From: Methylomarinum sp. Ch1-1
Lineage (GTDB): Bacteria > Pseudomonadota > Gammaproteobacteria > Methylococcales > Methylomonadaceae
Reading direction: 5' to 3'
Length of the DNA stretch: 64,000 nt
Assembly (NCBI RefSeq): GCF_030717995.2
Contig: NZ_CP157743.1
Span: forward strand, 2,382,501-2,446,500
Every line of letters starts with the position of its first letter. The first letter of the stretch is position 1. This document shows, piece after piece, positions 2,489 through 49,528 of the stretch. The notes under the pieces are model-generated. The model saw only the letters and a list, made by a program, of their open reading frames with translations. It was not told the origin of the DNA and made no database searches. The position numbers were made by a program, and so were the translations under genes.

Positions 2489-3022
2489 TTAATGAGTCGA
2501 TGGGCCTAATTGTAGTTCAAAGAAGGTCGCCGGTTTAAGATTGAGCAGCCTGGCGATCAGTAAGTCGGGAAAAGAGTCGATGCGGGTGTTTAAGTTGCGG
2601 ACGGCGCCGTTATAATAGCGTCTAGCCGACTGTATCGTGTTTTCGATCTCGCTCAAATTGTCTTGCAAACTGAGATATTGTTGATTCGTCTTGATATCCG
2701 GGTAATTTTCCATCAGTAGCAGAATCTGTCTGAAGTTGTCGCCGAGTCGGTTTTCTAGCAGTGATTTTTGTTCCGGTCTGTCGCTGTTTTGGCTGGCTGT
2801 GCGCAGCTCGATAATTCGGGTCAATGTCTGTTGTTCATAATGGCCATAGGAGTCGACCACAGCGATCAGCTTGGGGATGAGTTGGTGACGTCTGGCGAGT
2901 TGGACATTAATATCGCTCCAAGCGGCCAACACCCGGTTTTTGTCCCTGATGAGGCGGTTGTAGCTGATGGTTGCAAGGATGAGCAGTGAAGCTAAGAAAA
3001 TAATCAGGATAGTCGTCAGCAT
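2489..3022 (-). CDS. lemA: LemA family protein
   Basis: 177 residues: one N-terminal membrane helix (LTTILIIFLASLLILATIS) followed by a helical-bundle LemA domain with the characteristic RDKNRVLAAWSDINVQLARR and HQLIPKLIAVVDSYGHYEQ segments. LemA proteins are membrane-anchored with an exposed helical bundle. Their role is poorly defined, but they are consistently found next to DUF2207/TPM-type membrane proteins. Here lemA is the first gene of a two-gene minus-strand unit with the DUF2207 gene. Confidence 0.9.
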   Translation of the reverse strand: MLTTILIIFLASLLILATISYNRLIRDKNRVLAAWSDINVQLARRHQLIPKLIAVVDSYGHYEQQTLTRIIELRTASQNSDRPEQKSLLENRLGDNFRQILLLMENYPDIKTNQQYLSLQDNLSEIENTIQSARRYYNGAVRNLNTRIDSFPDLLIARLLNLKPATFFELQLGPSTH

Positions 3023-3206
3023 GGTTATTCGATTTGCAAGGACGAGTCATGGAGGGCGGTAATTTTACCGCTCGGGAAATTTTCGTAATACGATTTTGGG
3101 CTGACAAACATTGGCTTTACTAGGGATTTTAAGTTCTATTTAAGCTGGAAAAAAATAAAATATAGTCTAATTTTAGTCATTGTTATCTATTGGTTGAGTA
3201 TAGGGC

Positions 3207-3587
3207 ATGGAAAAAAGAGTTTATCCCCGTGTAGCGGCCAATTTTTCGGCTGTCATCGCTAATGAGGATGGTATTAAGTTGAAGGTGATGGCTATGGATG
3301 CTTCCAGCGAAGGACTTTGCGTGGAGTGCAATACCATAGAAAGAAACTTGGTGACGCCAGGCGGAAATTTTGTCCGCGATGGTAAACCGGTCGAGTTGTT
3401 CGTTTGGTTGGATCTGCCTGATGAGAATGGCGGCACTGCCAAGATCGAGGCTCGTTGTCATGTGGCATTTTCGCGCCGCATCGCCAATGACAGGTGTAAG
3501 ATAGGCATGCGCTATCTTAATCTGGAAAAAAAGGCTTATGAAAAATTGATTCGATTCATCGAATATGCCATGGCATCCAACGATTAG
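3207..3587 (+). CDS. PilZ domain protein (putative c-di-GMP receptor)
   Basis: 126 residues, essentially one PilZ domain. The c-di-GMP-binding RxxxR is at R4-R8 (RVYPR) and the second motif appears as DASSEG near residue 31, so ligand binding looks intact. No output domain is fused, so it probably acts by binding a partner protein. It is a single gene with no close same-strand neighbour. Its last 46 bp are duplicated at about 3905-3950, together with about 170 bp of downstream repeat sequence. The HD-GYP regulator at 18.1 kb may be a source of c-di-GMP turnover, but nothing here links the two directly. Confidence 0.85.
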   Translation: MEKRVYPRVAANFSAVIANEDGIKLKVMAMDASSEGLCVECNTIERNLVTPGGNFVRDGKPVELFVWLDLPDENGGTAKIEARCHVAFSRRIANDRCKIGMRYLNLEKKAYEKLIRFIEYAMASND

Positions 3588-4174: not shown

Positions 4175-6814
4175 TCAGCCGTCCAATAGTTCCAATATTA
4201 AATTCTTCAATTCAGCCAGGGTGTCGGCGTCTTTGATCGGTTGTGAATGCCGGTCCGTAATATAAAACATGTCTTCCGCGCGACTGCCGATCGTCGTGAT
4301 CCTGGCGTCATGCAATTGAATGTTTTTCTGCCTGAATGCCTGACCGATGATCGATAGTAGCCCGGCTCTGTCGGTGGTAATCAATTCCATGGCGGTGTGC
4401 TTATGCATGGGGTCTTCCAGATAAGAAATCCGGGTCTTGATCGGGAAATGGCGCGCCTGTCTGGATTGTCTGTGAACGTTTTTCTGGCGTTTTAATTTTC
4501 GGCTGATCAGGTTATTGCGTAGCGAGGTGCAAATATGTATTTCTCTATGCAGATCGTTGATCGCTTCGCCCGATTGCTCGAGGATTTGAAAGCTGTTCAG
4601 GACGTATTGGTCGGCCGTCGTGATGATGCGCGCATCCATAATGTTCATGCCCAGGCGGTCCAGGGTGGCCGTGCAGATCGAAAACAACTTGTCCTTGTTT
4701 TGCGTGTAGACGAAGATTTCGGCGCTGCCGCGCTGGGTGTGCGGGCGCAACAGCACCAGCGGCAGGTCCTCGGGCTTAGATGCGGCGATGGCGATGGTGT
4801 GCCAGGCAATTTCGTCCCCCGAATAGCGCAGAAAATAGTCGTCGTTGAAGTGTTGCCAGGATTGTTTGATCGTGGCCGGCGAGATGCCCAGCCTGAGGAG
4901 TTCGTCGGCGGCTTCTTTTTTGTTATCCTCCAGGCGTTCCGAGCGGGCGATTGGTTTGTCCAGGCCGCGGTGCAGGGCGTTGTGGGTGGAAATGTAGAGC
5001 TCTTTCAGCAGCGAGTCTTTCCAGGAATTCCATAGGCTGGGATTGGTGGCGCGTATATCGGCGACGGTGAGCAGGTATAAATAGTTCAGATATTTGATGC
5101 TGCCGACCTGCTGTGCGAATTCATGGATGATCGTCGGATCGCTGATGTCTTTTTTCTGTGCCGTGGTCGACATCAGCAGGTGATGGCGCACCAACCAGGT
5201 AATCAGTTTGCGGTCGCGGGAAGGCAGGTCGTGCTGTAGGCAGAAGTCATTGGCGATCTTTTCGCCGAGCTGCGAATGATCGCCGCCCTTGCCCTTGGCG
5301 ATATCATGAAACAAGGCGGCGATGTAAAGAATGTCCGGACTTGGAATCAACAAGAAGATGTTGTTGCAAAATGGCAGTTCGTTGTTGTGTTTATCCAGCG
5401 CAAAGCGGCGTAGGTTGCGGATCACGAACAGGGTGTGCTCATCGACGGTGTAAATATGAAATAAATCATATTGCATGCGCTGGACGATATTGGCGAAGCT
5501 GGGCAGGTAGGCGGCCAGGATGCCGTAACGATTCATGCGGCGCAATTGATGAGTGATGCCTCGAGGTTGGCGCAGGATCTCGATAAAAAGACGATTGGCT
5601 TTCTTGTTGCGCCTGAAGTCATCGTCGATTAGATGCAGGCTTTTGCGGATCAAGCGGATCGTCGTGGCTCTGATTCCCTTGATCGACGGACTTTGTTGCA
5701 GCAATAAGAAGATTTCCAGCAGGGTCAGCGGGTTGTCGTTAAAAACATCTTTATGGCTGACTTCGAGGTAGCCGTTGATGACCGAAAAATTTGCGGTAAT
5801 CGGCGAGGGCTTGCTGTTTTTAGCGGCCTTGATGAAGCGTTCGTTAAACAGCTGCAGCAAGATTTCGTTCAGCTGTTCTATATTGGCCACCGTTTTAAAA
5901 TAAAACTGCATGAAGGCTTCGACATCCGGCTGCTGTTTCTGATCCAAGTAGCCGAATTGCTTGGCCAAGTCGCGTTGATAATCGAATAGCAACCTGTTTT
6001 CGCAACGGTTGGTCAGCGCATGCAGGGCGAATCTGAGGCGCCACAGGATGTTTCTGGCCAGGATCAGCTCGTCATATTCGGACGCCGGCATGAAATCGTA
6101 TTTGATCAGTTCCCGCAGCGTCGGCGAATCATAATGTCGTTTGAAAACCCAGGCGATGATTTGTAGGTCGCGCAGGCCGCCAGGGCCTTCCTTGATATTG
6201 GGCTCCAGGTTGTAGGCGGTGTCATGGAATTTATTGTAACGCTGGGTTTGTTCCGCCATCTTAGCCTGGAAGAAGCTCGCCGACGGCCATAGTCGATCGC
6301 TGGAAATTTGCGTTTTGAGTCGTTGCGCCAACTCTTCGTTGCCGGTGATCAGGCGCATCTCCATCAGACTCGTGATGATGGTTTGGTCCTCGCAGGCTTT
6401 GTCGATGCATTCCTCGATGGTGCGGACGCTTTGCCCGGGGTTGAGGCCGATATCCCAAAGAAAATTGCAGAACTTCGGGAGTTTCTCCTTGAAGTCGTTA
6501 TCTTGTTGATCGTTTAACAGGATGACGATGTCGATATCGGAATGGGGAAACAGTTCGTTGCGACCGTAACCCCCGGTTGCGATCAGGCTGTGCGAGGAGG
6601 CGTGTGTGTCTAAAAAATGACGCCAGCACGCGCTCAGGACATGGTCGATAAATAAGGATTTTTCCCTGAGTAAATCAAGCACATCGTGCTGCGGGTCGAA
6701 TTTGTTTGTCAGTTGTGCGTTTTTATCGATAATCGCTTCTTTGAACAAAGCGATGGCGTTGGTTTGCGCAAAATACTGAGTAAACGAGGCGATGGCGTCG
6801 CTTTCTGTGTTCAC
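4175..6814 (-). CDS. glnD: Bifunctional [protein-PII] uridylyltransferase / uridylyl-removing enzyme
   Basis: 879 residues, normal for GlnD. It senses glutamine and adds or removes UMP on PII proteins (GlnB/GlnK), controlling nitrogen assimilation. The nucleotidyltransferase domain carries GGYGRNELFPHSDIDI (residues 81-96) with the two catalytic aspartates. The HD hydrolase domain carries HDIAKGKGGDHSQLG near residue 503. Two ACT domains (from about 690 and 805) close the protein and bind glutamine. Its start codon overlaps the map stop by 4 bp, so the genes are translationally coupled. The map-glnD pairing is common in gammaproteobacteria. Confidence 0.97.
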   Translation of the reverse strand: MNTESDAIASFTQYFAQTNAIALFKEAIIDKNAQLTNKFDPQHDVLDLLREKSLFIDHVLSACWRHFLDTHASSHSLIATGGYGRNELFPHSDIDIVILLNDQQDNDFKEKLPKFCNFLWDIGLNPGQSVRTIEECIDKACEDQTIITSLMEMRLITGNEELAQRLKTQISSDRLWPSASFFQAKMAEQTQRYNKFHDTAYNLEPNIKEGPGGLRDLQIIAWVFKRHYDSPTLRELIKYDFMPASEYDELILARNILWRLRFALHALTNRCENRLLFDYQRDLAKQFGYLDQKQQPDVEAFMQFYFKTVANIEQLNEILLQLFNERFIKAAKNSKPSPITANFSVINGYLEVSHKDVFNDNPLTLLEIFLLLQQSPSIKGIRATTIRLIRKSLHLIDDDFRRNKKANRLFIEILRQPRGITHQLRRMNRYGILAAYLPSFANIVQRMQYDLFHIYTVDEHTLFVIRNLRRFALDKHNNELPFCNNIFLLIPSPDILYIAALFHDIAKGKGGDHSQLGEKIANDFCLQHDLPSRDRKLITWLVRHHLLMSTTAQKKDISDPTIIHEFAQQVGSIKYLNYLYLLTVADIRATNPSLWNSWKDSLLKELYISTHNALHRGLDKPIARSERLEDNKKEAADELLRLGISPATIKQSWQHFNDDYFLRYSGDEIAWHTIAIAASKPEDLPLVLLRPHTQRGSAEIFVYTQNKDKLFSICTATLDRLGMNIMDARIITTADQYVLNSFQILEQSGEAINDLHREIHICTSLRNNLISRKLKRQKNVHRQSRQARHFPIKTRISYLEDPMHKHTAMELITTDRAGLLSIIGQAFRQKNIQLHDARITTIGSRAEDMFYITDRHSQPIKDADTLAELKNLILELLDG

Positions 6815-7575
6815 AATTCTTCTTGTCGTAATGTCAGGATTTCATGGCTGTCATCGGTGACCAAAATGGTATGTTCCCATTGCGCCGACAGGCTACGGTC
6901 CTTGGTGACCGCGGTCCAGCCGTCCTTGAGGATTTTCATATGGCGTTTGCCCAGATTCAGCATCGGCTCGATGGTGAAGATCATGCCCGGTTTCAGTACG
7001 GCTCCTTCGCCAGGCTTGCCGAAATGCATGACGTGAGGGTCCTCATGGAAATTTTGACCGATGCCGTGGCCGCAGAATTCTCTCACCACCGAATAGCGAT
7101 TCGATTCGGCATGTTTCTGAATGGCGTGGCCGATATCTCCGAGGGTCGCGCCCGGCTTGACTTGCTCGATGCCGAGGAACATCGCCTCGCGGGTGATGTC
7201 CACCAGGCGCTTGGCGTGCGGGGTCACCTTGCCGACGCAGAACATCTTGCTGGTGTCGCCATGGTAACCGTCCTTGATCACGGTGATATCGATATTGACG
7301 ATGTCGCCGTTCTTGAGCTTTTTTTCGCTGGGAATGCCGTGGCAAATCTGCTGATTGATCGAGGTGCAGATTGATTTAGGGAAGCCCCGATAGTTTAGCG
7401 GCGCCGGGATTGCTTGCTGTTCATTGACGATATAGTCATGACAAATTCGGTCTAGCTCGTTGGTCGTGACGCCGGCGACCACGTGCGGGGCGATCATTTC
7501 CAGAACTTCGGCGGCCAGTTTTCCGGCGATGCGCATTTTTTCGATTTCATCGGCCGTTTTGATTGTAATGCTCAT
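6811..7575 (-). CDS. map: Type I methionine aminopeptidase
   Basis: 254 residues. It removes the initiator methionine from nascent proteins. All five metal ligands are visible: D96, D107, H170, E203 and E234, with the catalytic H79 in QQICHGIP. No N-terminal zinc-finger extension, so the short type Ia form. The gene is divergent from rpsB, as in many gammaproteobacteria, but the shared intergenic region has been expanded to 1.9 kb by repeats. It is followed by glnD with a 4-bp overlap. Confidence 0.97.
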   Translation of the reverse strand: MSITIKTADEIEKMRIAGKLAAEVLEMIAPHVVAGVTTNELDRICHDYIVNEQQAIPAPLNYRGFPKSICTSINQQICHGIPSEKKLKNGDIVNIDITVIKDGYHGDTSKMFCVGKVTPHAKRLVDITREAMFLGIEQVKPGATLGDIGHAIQKHAESNRYSVVREFCGHGIGQNFHEDPHVMHFGKPGEGAVLKPGMIFTIEPMLNLGKRHMKILKDGWTAVTKDRSLSAQWEHTILVTDDSHEILTLRQEEL

Positions 7576-7799
7576 GTTGTGTGATTTAATACGCTTTGAT
7601 TGTTAGCTTGCGGTTCGGGTGGTTGATAGCGTTTGACGATGGGTGTGAACACCGGAGAGAAAATCAGTCGAGTGTAACCGTATCCTTATGTTGTTGACAG
7701 CCATTTAAGTTTTATAGGGCTTCGGTCTATCGCTTTAACGGCGATAGTCGAGGCGGTCCCGGCGGCGTCGGTCCTTGTCATCGTCTAGCTTATCGGAAT

Positions 7800-8108
7800 G
7801 TAATTATTCGACAATATCATAGACTATTGGCTATGATTTATAATCGTCGTTTATTTCAGTAATTCCCAGTTTGAGCATTTTTGCTGTGTTTAGGGCATGG
7901 GGTGTGTCTGTCGAGGAGCGCCGTAAACCCATCCCTGGGGGCTTGACGGCCGCATCCTTGCTGCCGACATCCTCGCCAAACACACCCCATGCCCTTTTTG
8001 AACGCCAAAGTGGGAATTGCTGCGTTTATTTAGGTTAGGTGCTGGGTGAACGCGTCCCGAGAAATCAATGACCTGCTGCCTAAATCCTGAAAGAGACTGA
8101 ATAGTTGC
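7800..8108 (-). mobile_element. Family C MITE-like element with a nested family B element
   Basis: Ends are GTAATTATTC at 7800 and GAATAGTTGC at 8108. An 8-bp direct repeat ATCGGAAT flanks it (7792-7799 and 8109-8116). The right half matches the reverse of the 17.0-kb copy, including the CGCGTCCCGAGAAATCAATG stretch. The left inverted repeat is shortened. A 166-bp family B element is inserted inside, so the original length was about 134 bp. There is no coding capacity for a transposase. Confidence 0.85.
7857..8022 (+). mobile_element. Family B MITE-like element, 166 bp, 9-bp target duplication
   Basis: Begins CAGTAATTCCCAGTTTGAGC and ends AAAGTGGGAATTGCTG, giving imperfect terminal inverted repeats. 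It is flanked by the perfect 9-bp duplication CGTTTATTT (7848-7856 and 8023-8031). The interior is an imperfect palindrome (GGCATGGGGTGTG facing CACACCCCATGCC). It lies inside a family C element. Confidence 0.9.
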
Positions 8109-8214
8109 ATCGGAATTTAGTGCGGTCAAGATGTCTGCAAGGCCTAACTATAACAAAATCCGTCAGTCGAGAACAATTGTCGTTATGTAATATTCAGGAT
8201 AATCACGTGATGCC

Positions 8215-9290
8215 GCGGGTGATTGTTACGTAATTCGCTCCCTTGTCTTTTCACGCGGGGCGGGTTATTTAACCCGCCCCGAACATTTGTAGATGCGCTG
8301 AACTGCGTGAAGCGCATCAAAAAACCGGTGCGCTTCCTATCGTCAGCACACCCTACCGCATCATAGGGTGGCTTCGCGTAGGGTGGCTTTGCGTAGAGTG
8401 GCTTTGCGTAGGGTGGCTTTGCGTAGGGTGGCTTTGCGTAGGGTGGCTTTGCGTAGGGTGGCTTTGCGTAGGGTGGCTTTGCGTAGGGTGGCTTTGCGTA
8501 GGGTGGCTTTGCGTAGGGTGGCTTTGCGTAGGGTGGCTTCGCGTAGGGTGGCTTCGCGAAGCAAGCCACCAAAACCCGCACAAAACCCGCACCGAGGGCC
8601 AAATTGGCGTAGGGGGATCAAGCGCAGCGGGTCCGCCAAACCCCGCACCGGGGTCAAAATTGGCCGTTGTGCGTATCCAGGCGGATTGCCTGGCGGCGAA
8701 TCCACCCTACGGTCGCGATGCCTTTCGTAGGATGTGCTGAACGAACGTGAAGCGCATCAAAAACCGGTGCGCTTCCTATCGTCAGCACACCCTACCCACA
8801 TCCGTGAGGTGGAACACGCGCAGCGGATCCGCCAACGTAGGGCGGCTTCGCGTAGGGTGGCTTCGCGAAGCAAGCCACCACAACCCGCACCGTGGGCCAA
8901 ATTGGCGTAGGATGGATCAAGCGCGGCGGATCCGCCAAACCCCGCACCGAGGAATCAAAATTGGCCGTTGTGCGTATCCAGGCGGATTGCCTGGCGGCGA
9001 ATCCGCCCTACGGTCGCGATGCCTTTCGTAGGATGTGCTGAACAACGTGAAGCGCATCAAAAACTGGTGCGCTTCCTATCGTCAGCACACCCTACCGCAG
9101 CGTAGGGTGGCTTCGCGAAGCAAGCCACCAAAACCCGCACAAAACCCGCACCGTGGGCCAAATTGGCGTAGGATGGATCAAGCGCAGCGGATCCGCCAAA
9201 ACCCCGCACCGGGGGGGGGGGCAAAATTGGCCGTTGTACGTATCCAGGCGTATTGCCTGGCGGCGAATCCACTACGGTTGTGAGGGCAAT
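8215..9290 (+). repeat. GTAG-type REP array between map and rpsB
   Basis: A non-coding mosaic of REP hairpins. It starts with the palindrome GGGGCGGGTTATTTAACCCG (arm completed by CCCC) near 8256. The units GTAGGGTGGCTTCGCG, GTAGGATGGATCAAGCG, GTAGGGTGGATTCGCC (as its complement) and GTAGGATGTGCTGAAC then alternate, each followed by its pairing arm. Three full composite units occur (around 8580-8800, 8870-9100 and 9120-9275). Every open frame across the array is a by-product of the repeats. Confidence 0.85.
8366..8560 (+). repeat. 15-bp tandem repeat (about 13 copies) of a REP half-unit
   Basis: The unit is GTGGCTTTGCGTAGG, repeated about 13 times with C/T and A/G variants at the first two and last two units. 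The unit equals the GTAG tetranucleotide plus the 5' stem arm of the adjacent REP (GTAGGGTGGCTTCGCG). The opposite arm (AAGCCACC) appears only once, at the right end. Confidence 0.9.
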
Positions 9291-9490: not shown

Positions 9491-10234
9491 ATGGCAGCAG
9501 TGTCAATGCGTCAAATGCTAGAAGCGGGTGTTCATTTTGGACATCAGACCCGTTACTGGAACCCAAAAATGGCTCCCTATCTGTTCGGAGCTCGTAATAA
9601 AATTCATATCATCGATCTTGAGCAAACGCTTCCTCTGTTTAACGATGCGATGAATTATCTGGGTCAGATGACCGCTAACAAAGGCAATATCCTGTTCGTC
9701 GGCACTAAGAAAGCCGCGCGTAAAGTGGTGGCGGAAGAAGCCAAGCGTTGTGGCATGCCTTATGTCAACCATCGTTGGTTGGGCGGCATGTTGACCAACT
9801 TCAAAACCATCAAGAAATCGATCAATCGCTTGAAAGAACTGGAAGCGATGAAGGCCGACGGCACCTTATATCAACGTTTCAATAAAAAAGAGGCGTTGGG
9901 TATGGAGCGCGAGATGGAAAAGCTTGAGCGTAGCCTGGGCGGCATCAAGGATATGCGCGGCATCCCCGACGCAATCTTTGTCTTGGATGTCGGTTATGAA
10001 AAAAATGCCGTCATGGAAGCGAAAAAACTGGGCGTCCCTGTCGTTGCTATCGTTGACTCGAACAACTCTCCGGACAACGTCGATTATGTGATCCCTGGTA
10101 ACGATGACTCTATTCGCGCCGTCAAGCTGTATTGCCAAGCCGCTTCCGCCGCAGTGCTGGAAGCAAAAACAGCGGTGCTGGACAGCTCGGCAAAAACGGA
10201 CGAATTTGTCGAAGAAGTCTCTACCGAAGAGTAA
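9491..10234 (+). CDS. rpsB: 30S ribosomal protein S2
   Basis: 247 residues, full-length S2. It starts [20 protein letters not shown], the conserved N-terminal signature, and contains [21 protein letters not shown] and the [12 protein letters not shown] segment. It binds the 16S rRNA head-body junction late in 30S assembly. The start is fixed by TAGGAG 8 nt upstream. tsf follows after a hairpin, as in E. coli. The roughly 140-nt leader after the candidate promoter could carry S2 autoregulation, but I cannot show a structure with certainty. Confidence 0.98.
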
Positions 10235-48628: not shown

Positions 48629-48840
48629 ATAACTATTCAGTATAAAAAATGCTTTTTCTATCAGTTACTTGCTTTAGAAGACGTCGTTCAGCCAGCATCT
48701 AAATTATTCTGGCATGTAAAATGAAGTGAAAAAGCTATGGAATTTAGGTGCTGGGGGCTTGACGGCGGACTCCCTGCCGCCGAAATCCTCGCCAAACACA
48801 CCCCAAGCCCTGTTTGTTATCCAAATAGGGTGGAAATGCA
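48629..48840 (+). repeat. Degenerate family C end fused to a family B-like interior
   Basis: TAACTATTCAGTATAAAAAA (family C end), then CGTTCAGCCAGCATCTAAAT with its inverted arm AATTTAGGTGCTGGG (inner palindrome), then GCCGAAATCCTCGCCAAACA (family B right half) and CCAAATAGGGTGGAAATGC. No target duplication visible. Confidence 0.7.
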
Positions 48841-48848
48841 GATTTTGC

Positions 48849-49040
48849 CATAATGCCAAGGATGGCGTGTAGTAGAGCAATGCAGGAGCAATTGCCGATA
48901 ACGCCATGGATGGCGTGTAGTAGAGCAATGCAGGAGCAATTGCCGATAACGCCATGGAGGGCGTGTAGTAGAGCAATGCAGGAGCAATTGCCGATAACGC
49001 CATGGAGGGCGTGTAGTAGAGCAATGCAGGAGCAATTGCC
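48849..49040 (+). repeat. 48-bp tandem repeat, four copies
   Basis: Unit starts GATAACGCCATGGAGGGCGT and ends CAGGAGCAATTGCC; four copies end at 48896, 48944, 48992 and 49040. Copies 3 and 4 are identical to each other and differ from copy 2 by one base; copy 1 differs at its left end. The unit length is a multiple of three, which opens reading frames on both strands without evidence of translation. Confidence 0.9.
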
Positions 49041-49146
49041 GAGGAACATAAATCTGCCTTGTCGCATAGACTGCTTTCGCAAGTGGCTGATAGTCGCGGC
49101 AATATTTTTTTAACACCAAGCTGAATCGTTACAACTAAATAAACAC

Positions 49147-49528
49147 GTAATTATTCAGCGTAGTTTTACTAAGAGGGAGTAGGTTATTGATTTATCGGGC
49201 TGTCTGCAACAGGACGTTGCCAGCAATTCCCAGTTTGAGTATTTTTGCGGGGTTTAGGGCATGGGGTGTGTCTGTCGAGGAGCGCCGTAAACCCATCCAT
49301 GGGGGCTTGACGGCAGCATCCTTGCTGCCGACATCCTCGCCAAACACACCCCATGCCCTTTTTGAACGCCAAAGGGAATTGCTGGGACGTTGCAGTCAGA
49401 GCTTACGCCGCACAGGGAAGTGCAAGTGCCGCGTGAAGCAGGATGCTGTTAGCTGCCGTGGAAGTATTCACGCGTCCCGAGAAATCAATGACCTACTGCC
49501 TAAAACCCGAAAGATACTGAATAGTTAC
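49147..49528 (-). mobile_element. Family C MITE-like element carrying a nested family B element
   Basis: Ends GTAATTATTCAG (49147) and CTGAATAGTTAC (49528), with the 8-bp direct repeat ATAAACAC outside (49139-49146 and 49529-49536). Inverted relative to the 17.0-kb copy. Removing the inserted family B element and one copy of its duplication restores an uninterrupted GCAACAGGACGTTGCAGTCA as in the 28-kb copy. It ends 45 bp before the roadblock gene. Confidence 0.93.
49221..49384 (+). mobile_element. Family B MITE-like element, 164 bp, inserted in family C
   Basis: Starts CAGCAATTCCCAGTTTGAGT and ends CCAAAGGGAATTGCTG. The 9-bp duplication GGACGTTGC is present at 49212-49220 and 49385-49393, while empty family C sites contain it once. 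This gives direct proof of insertion and of the exact element ends. Confidence 0.95.

Follow-up and report, generated by a model that had tools for sequence, protein, structure and literature searches.

The insertion between two housekeeping genes at positions 7800-8108 of the analysed 64,000-nucleotide stretch of the Methylomarinum sp. Ch1-1 genome (the window) consists of three nested layers: a 166-bp element of family B was inserted in the remnant of a 65-bp palindromic module, M, and this remnant is itself part of a copy of family C. The outer element C, delimited from the sequence and by script, occupies 7800-8108 with the ends GTAATTATTC (7800) and GAATAGTTGC (8108), and is bordered on both sides by the 8-bp target duplication (TSD) ATCGGAAT (7792-7799 and 8109-8116, 8/8 identical). 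It is interrupted at 7857-8022 by B (plus strand; ends CAGTAATTCCCA..TGGGAATTGCTG), which is flanked by the 9-bp TSD CGTTTATTT (7848-7856 and 8023-8031, 9/9 identical) and which folds into a single long hairpin (-53.5 kcal/mol as DNA, z -9.8). The copy of C is an internally deleted MITE with IS66-type ends; it lies on the minus strand, reversed with respect to the C157 reference, and measures 309 bp including B, or 134 bp once B and one copy of its TSD are subtracted. It is incomplete: one arm (8047-8108, minus strand, ending in the IS66-type terminus) and the M remnant have been kept, and of the other half a deletion has left just the final ~10 bp of the terminus. The M remnant comprises a left part (7812-7856), within which the left TSD of B lies, and a right end (8032-8046; AGGTTAGGTGCTGGG, containing a 5-bp internal duplication), and was recognised when the empty site was rejoined and an nhmmer match to M spanned the junction (E 8e-4). 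More generally, the empty sites that are rejoined by taking out B and one TSD copy give unbroken C or M sequence over the junction. The sequence-only reading had described this locus as a second, independent insertion of B into C; its coordinates proved exact, and the C copy, the TSD and the spot all differ from those of the other nest in the window (B at 49221-49384, TSD GGACGTTGC, within C at 49147-49528, TSD ATAAACAC).

We consider it very probable that the nest was built from three layers of non-autonomous transposable elements, with C carrying M as the older layers and B as the younger one, an order that follows from the interruption of C by B. In a first step, an internal deletion would have cost a C-type MITE with the 65-bp M one of its halves. 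This MITE now lies in the map-rpsB interval, its 8-bp TSD intact; as this TSD would also survive a deletion after insertion, it does not fix the order of deletion and insertion. In a second step, a B-type MITE would have inserted into the M remnant, thereby creating the 9-bp TSD. The most likely agents are an IS66 transposase for C and a DDE transposase of the DDE_Tnp_1 / DDE_Tnp_1_assoc type (IS4/ISAs1-like) for B, both presumably acting in trans. The region is rich in repeats, with a 15-bp unit tandemly repeated 13 times close by, and an assembly artefact or chance palindromes might therefore be suspected, but both are hardly conceivable: B and C occur in dozens of copies across the genome, each with its own distinct TSD, and a misjoin would not place matching termini between duplications that are 8/8 and 9/9 identical.

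The nest is located between an ORF at 6811-7575 (minus strand) and an ORF at 9491-10234 (plus strand), which we take to be map and rpsB, respectively, by recognition and by the conserved synteny in congeners. The two genes are 1,915 bp apart here, while two congeneric genomes have 480 and 409 bp between them, so that the region is expanded in this genome, in part by the nest and in part by repeat arrays. The 15-bp tandem array (TAGGGTGGCTTTGCG, 13 copies) is found in the same intergenic region at 8364-8558, beside further dispersed repeats. A cmscan of the window recovered no known RNA family within the nest, its sole match being t44, before rpsB.

The properties of the two families were collected from a sample of 100 stretches of 20 kb, taken at 44-kb intervals along the main contig (2.0 Mb in all, 45% of that contig; the genome measures 4.77 Mb), to which the best 30 B loci and the best 30 C loci were added; the family assignments were made from the element ends, the TSD lengths and Pfam and NCBIfam domain models. 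C-type ends with an 8-bp TSD (at most one mismatch) were found at 47 places in the 2-Mb sample: 41 are MITE-size (84-581 bp, the copy at 7800-8108 included), five measure 1,670-1,673 bp and one, of 1,845 bp, holds another transposase-like gene. The five 1.67-kb elements (L098, L100, L121, L135 and L141) have the same ends and 8-bp TSD as C and encode a DDE_Tnp_IS66 domain (E 3e-28), the transposase ORF being intact (547 aa) in two of them (L098 and L100; 1,673 bp). C has the traits of a MITE with IS66-derived ends, namely terminal inverted repeats starting with GTAA, an 8-bp TSD and a partner with the same ends and an IS66 transposase, and it folds into a long hairpin (z -7.4 with respect to shuffled sequence). 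The GTAA start and the TSD length are those of the IS66 family, as is the transposase domain of the partner; C itself is geneless. Many members of the IS66 family work with accessory genes, whereas the 1.67-kb elements here hold the transposase ORF only.

B-type ends with a 9-bp TSD were recovered at 30 places in the 2-Mb sample and fall into three size classes: MITE-size elements, elements of 1,408-1,433 bp with a DDE_Tnp_1 transposase, and three elements of 1,704-1,712 bp. B is short (166 bp) and noncoding, has terminal inverted repeats (CAGYAATTCCCA), and shows the constant TSD length of a MITE, with perfect 9-bp TSDs at 44 of the 51 candidate places. The genome also contains partners with the same ends, the same 9-bp TSD and a transposase gene (L128, L157 and L063; open frames of 439 aa and 463 aa). 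The transposase matches DDE_Tnp_1 (E 2e-5, 25.2 bits with a cut-off of 23), scores 22.2 bits for DDE_Tnp_1_assoc (Pfam cut-off 32.3) and stays under the NCBIfam cut-offs for IS4 and IS1380, so that its subfamily placement is tentative. The link between B and this partner, drawn from ~12 bp of common termini, the TSD length and their presence in one genome, is likely; like B, the IS4/ISAs1-like DDE elements (DDE_Tnp_1, DDE_Tnp_1_assoc) have ends starting with CAG and a 9-bp TSD, and the DDE_Tnp_1 domain is found in the 1.41-1.43-kb partner. The three elements of 1,704-1,712 bp (L096 8262-9973, L097 17806-19509 and L103 16885-18588) carry an IS110-family transposase gene between B-like ends; as their 9-bp TSDs are all different, they appear to have been moved together with this cargo.

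The sequence-only reading had further noted that two of four clear C copies carry B and had offered two explanations, a preference of B for C-like or palindromic targets, or the abundance of both families. Both families are abundant indeed, B sequence making up 0.8% of the 2-Mb sample and C plus M 0.7%, almost entirely in intergenic DNA. The two nests in the window are real, but their proportion reflects a local fluctuation: only three of the ~41 MITE-size C copies with a TSD in this sample contain B, and two of these three are the ones from the window. The preference was evaluated on 47 B insertions, gathered from the 2-Mb sample and the 30 added B loci after four doubtful places had been dropped. 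The host element of each B was identified by searching the sequence that results when B and a single copy of its TSD are excised, and the expectation was derived from all intergenic 9-mers weighted by the target profile of B; C plus half of M then represents 3.3%, and this share rises to 5.2% after correction of the crude gene mask, whose coding fraction of 76% is probably an underestimate. Four of the 47 insertions lie in C (the nest at 7857, window 49221, L136 15427 and L018), where 1.5-2.4 were expected (P = 0.07-0.23), two lie in M outside a recognised C match (L025 and L030) and one lies in another B (L023), which gives 7/47 for the three repeats (B, C and M) together (P = 0.03-0.20). A selective targeting of C or of palindromes by B, with nesting as the outcome of a functional preference, could draw on these four C-nested and seven repeat-nested copies, and against the unscaled intergenic expectation of 6.4% the latter number gives P = 0.03. 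We nevertheless regard it as improbable: without the two cases from the window that prompted the idea only 2/45 insertions remain in C (P = 0.43-0.69), a smaller and realistic intergenic space brings P to 0.2-0.7, 40 of the 47 copies interrupt no B, C or M, and the four target spots within C are all different, with the TSDs CGTTTATTT, GGACGTTGC, CCATGTAAG and GATTTATCG. No excess of B in C beyond the genome share of C had been named as the outcome that would speak against a preference; this is what was found at the intergenic share, whereas at the raw genome share (0.7%) an excess does appear, which merely mirrors the avoidance of genes by B. B has a weak target profile (G/C at both ends, an A/T-rich core, intergenic), and it would land wherever this composition preference permits, C being one such place among many. 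The reverse nesting, C in B, was found at L076 336 and L092 3009; in the latter case (3009-3234, TSD CCCAGTTT), C interrupts a B element within its terminal inverted repeat. Adjoining the other nest in the window, at 48629-49132, lies a mosaic with C-type ends and an 8-bp TSD (AACTAAAT) that contains, besides an M-like stretch, a fragment of B and a 48-bp tandem repeat.

The interiors of B and C are related as well. Local alignment of B gave a score of 53 against C157 and of 49 against the reversed C165, where the maxima over 300 dinucleotide shuffles were 28. Judged by this alignment, B and C are homologous internally although their ends are those of two unrelated transposons, and what they share is a core of two hairpins (GGACGCCGTRAATACGTCC..GGCTTGACGGCRGC..GCYGCCGAC). 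In related genomes the same core was found between other arms, including those of an element at L220 whose ends are GGCTATGTTCGCGTTA and whose TSD measures 8 bp. The pairing of the second core hairpin is kept despite two-sided changes in 76 of 109 cores, versus 17 of 109 after shuffling, with GACGGCAGC/GCTGCCGAC, CTGCAA/TTGCAG, GCCAGC/GCTGGC and GACGGCGGC/GCCGCCGAC as paired variants, although hairpin-templated correction could be an alternative cause of such two-sided changes. The ends may have been swapped around a resident core, or the core may have moved into different shells.

The interior homology, together with the presence of the core within families of relatives that have other arms, favours one half of a further explanation, which holds that B and C form one palindromic lineage with termini exchanged between insertion sequences, and that the nest arose by recombination between related palindromes instead of transposition. 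The common lineage is supported, but the recombination is not. Both elements at 7.8-8.1 kb are flanked by perfect TSDs of the length that is typical of their own ends, where homologous exchange would leave none, and B in the nest sits in M, outside the shared core. The TSDs largely refute recombination for this locus, and as a whole the explanation is very unlikely; the nest is better read as the product of successive transpositions.

Module M is a 65-bp palindrome (CCCAGCACCTAAAT..ATTTAGGTGCTGGG) that occurs, in either orientation, in the middle of B (166 bp becoming 235 bp) and in the middle of C (157 bp becoming 226 bp). It occupies one fixed position at the tip of a core hairpin, exactly CG^TRAA, where it is present in 62 and absent from 47 of the 109 cores. 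In relatives the flanks of M are TGAA/TGAA in 47 cases and TAAA/TAAA in 20, but TGAA/TAAA in only 3 (93 in total), an apparent match to the pattern of a 4-bp target duplication TRAA; in the genome of the window the left flank is mostly TTCA, for which a simple TSD does not account. Among the matches listed from a contig scan with the exact pattern, M was also found in Methylotuvimicrobium/Methylomicrobium and in gammaproteobacterial MAGs. An origin of M as a REPIN mobilised by a RAYT was considered and rejected, since 35 Y1_Tnp loci from five genomes gave a single match to an M end, 109 bp into L356. In a genome of the same genus (G001), an IS200-type Y1 transposase gene is present in ~95 near-identical copies (e.g. 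L351), most of which contain one in-frame TGA.

Bacterial MITEs that are mobilised in trans by an insertion sequence include RUP, NEMIS, ERIC and Nezha (PMC3733652). B and C resemble these in being short, noncoding and intergenic, in their terminal inverted repeats, TSDs, high copy number and strong hairpins, and in the presence of a transposase-bearing partner in the genome; they differ in combining two end types (IS66-like and IS4/ISAs1-like) over a homologous core and in the further palindrome inserted in it. In the open-licence papers we found no direct precedent for nested or end-swapped bacterial MITEs, or for MITEs of methanotrophs, beyond the REP dimers that occur in longer palindromes (GTAG-15 of Anabaena variabilis and CGTC-1 of H. 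neapolitanus; PMC3733652). There a small palindrome is central in a larger one, like M in B and C, but the end repeats of M are long, its apparent TSD measures 4 bp, and the examined RAYT loci are not flanked by M ends. Nested MITEs on their own are common and yield relative dating only, and the nesting described here is mechanistically ordinary; the new part is the shared core with apparently exchanged ends and an M inserted at its tip. The shared core suggests that miniature elements can switch transposase by gaining new ends, which, if true, would explain how MITE families outlive their parent insertion sequence, and the filled and empty M sites at one position, flanked by TGAA/TGAA or TAAA/TAAA, make a tiny mobile palindrome directly testable.

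For the Methylomonadaceae we tentatively put forward a wider scheme, which may well need revision: one palindromic core would have been passed among at least three unrelated transposon families, two of which supply IS66-type and IS4/ISAs1-type ends, its mobility being independent of any single transposase; M would jump into the fixed hairpin tip of this core with a 4-bp TRAA duplication; and the M-like ends of GIY-YIG insertions in 23S rRNA genes would make M a hairpin-tip parasite of MITEs and rRNA genes alike. The likeness between these ends is a lead only. The insertions concerned encode GIY-YIG proteins, lie in hairpins of the 23S rRNA gene and have the M-like ends CCCCGCACCTAAATT and CCCCGCCCCTAAATT; they were found in this genome and in two further ones from the family. 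Each of the two 23S rRNA genes in the sample holds two GIY-YIG insertions, bounded by inverted repeats that look like M ends (L061 1318-1610 and 2921-3439, and their equivalents in L068).
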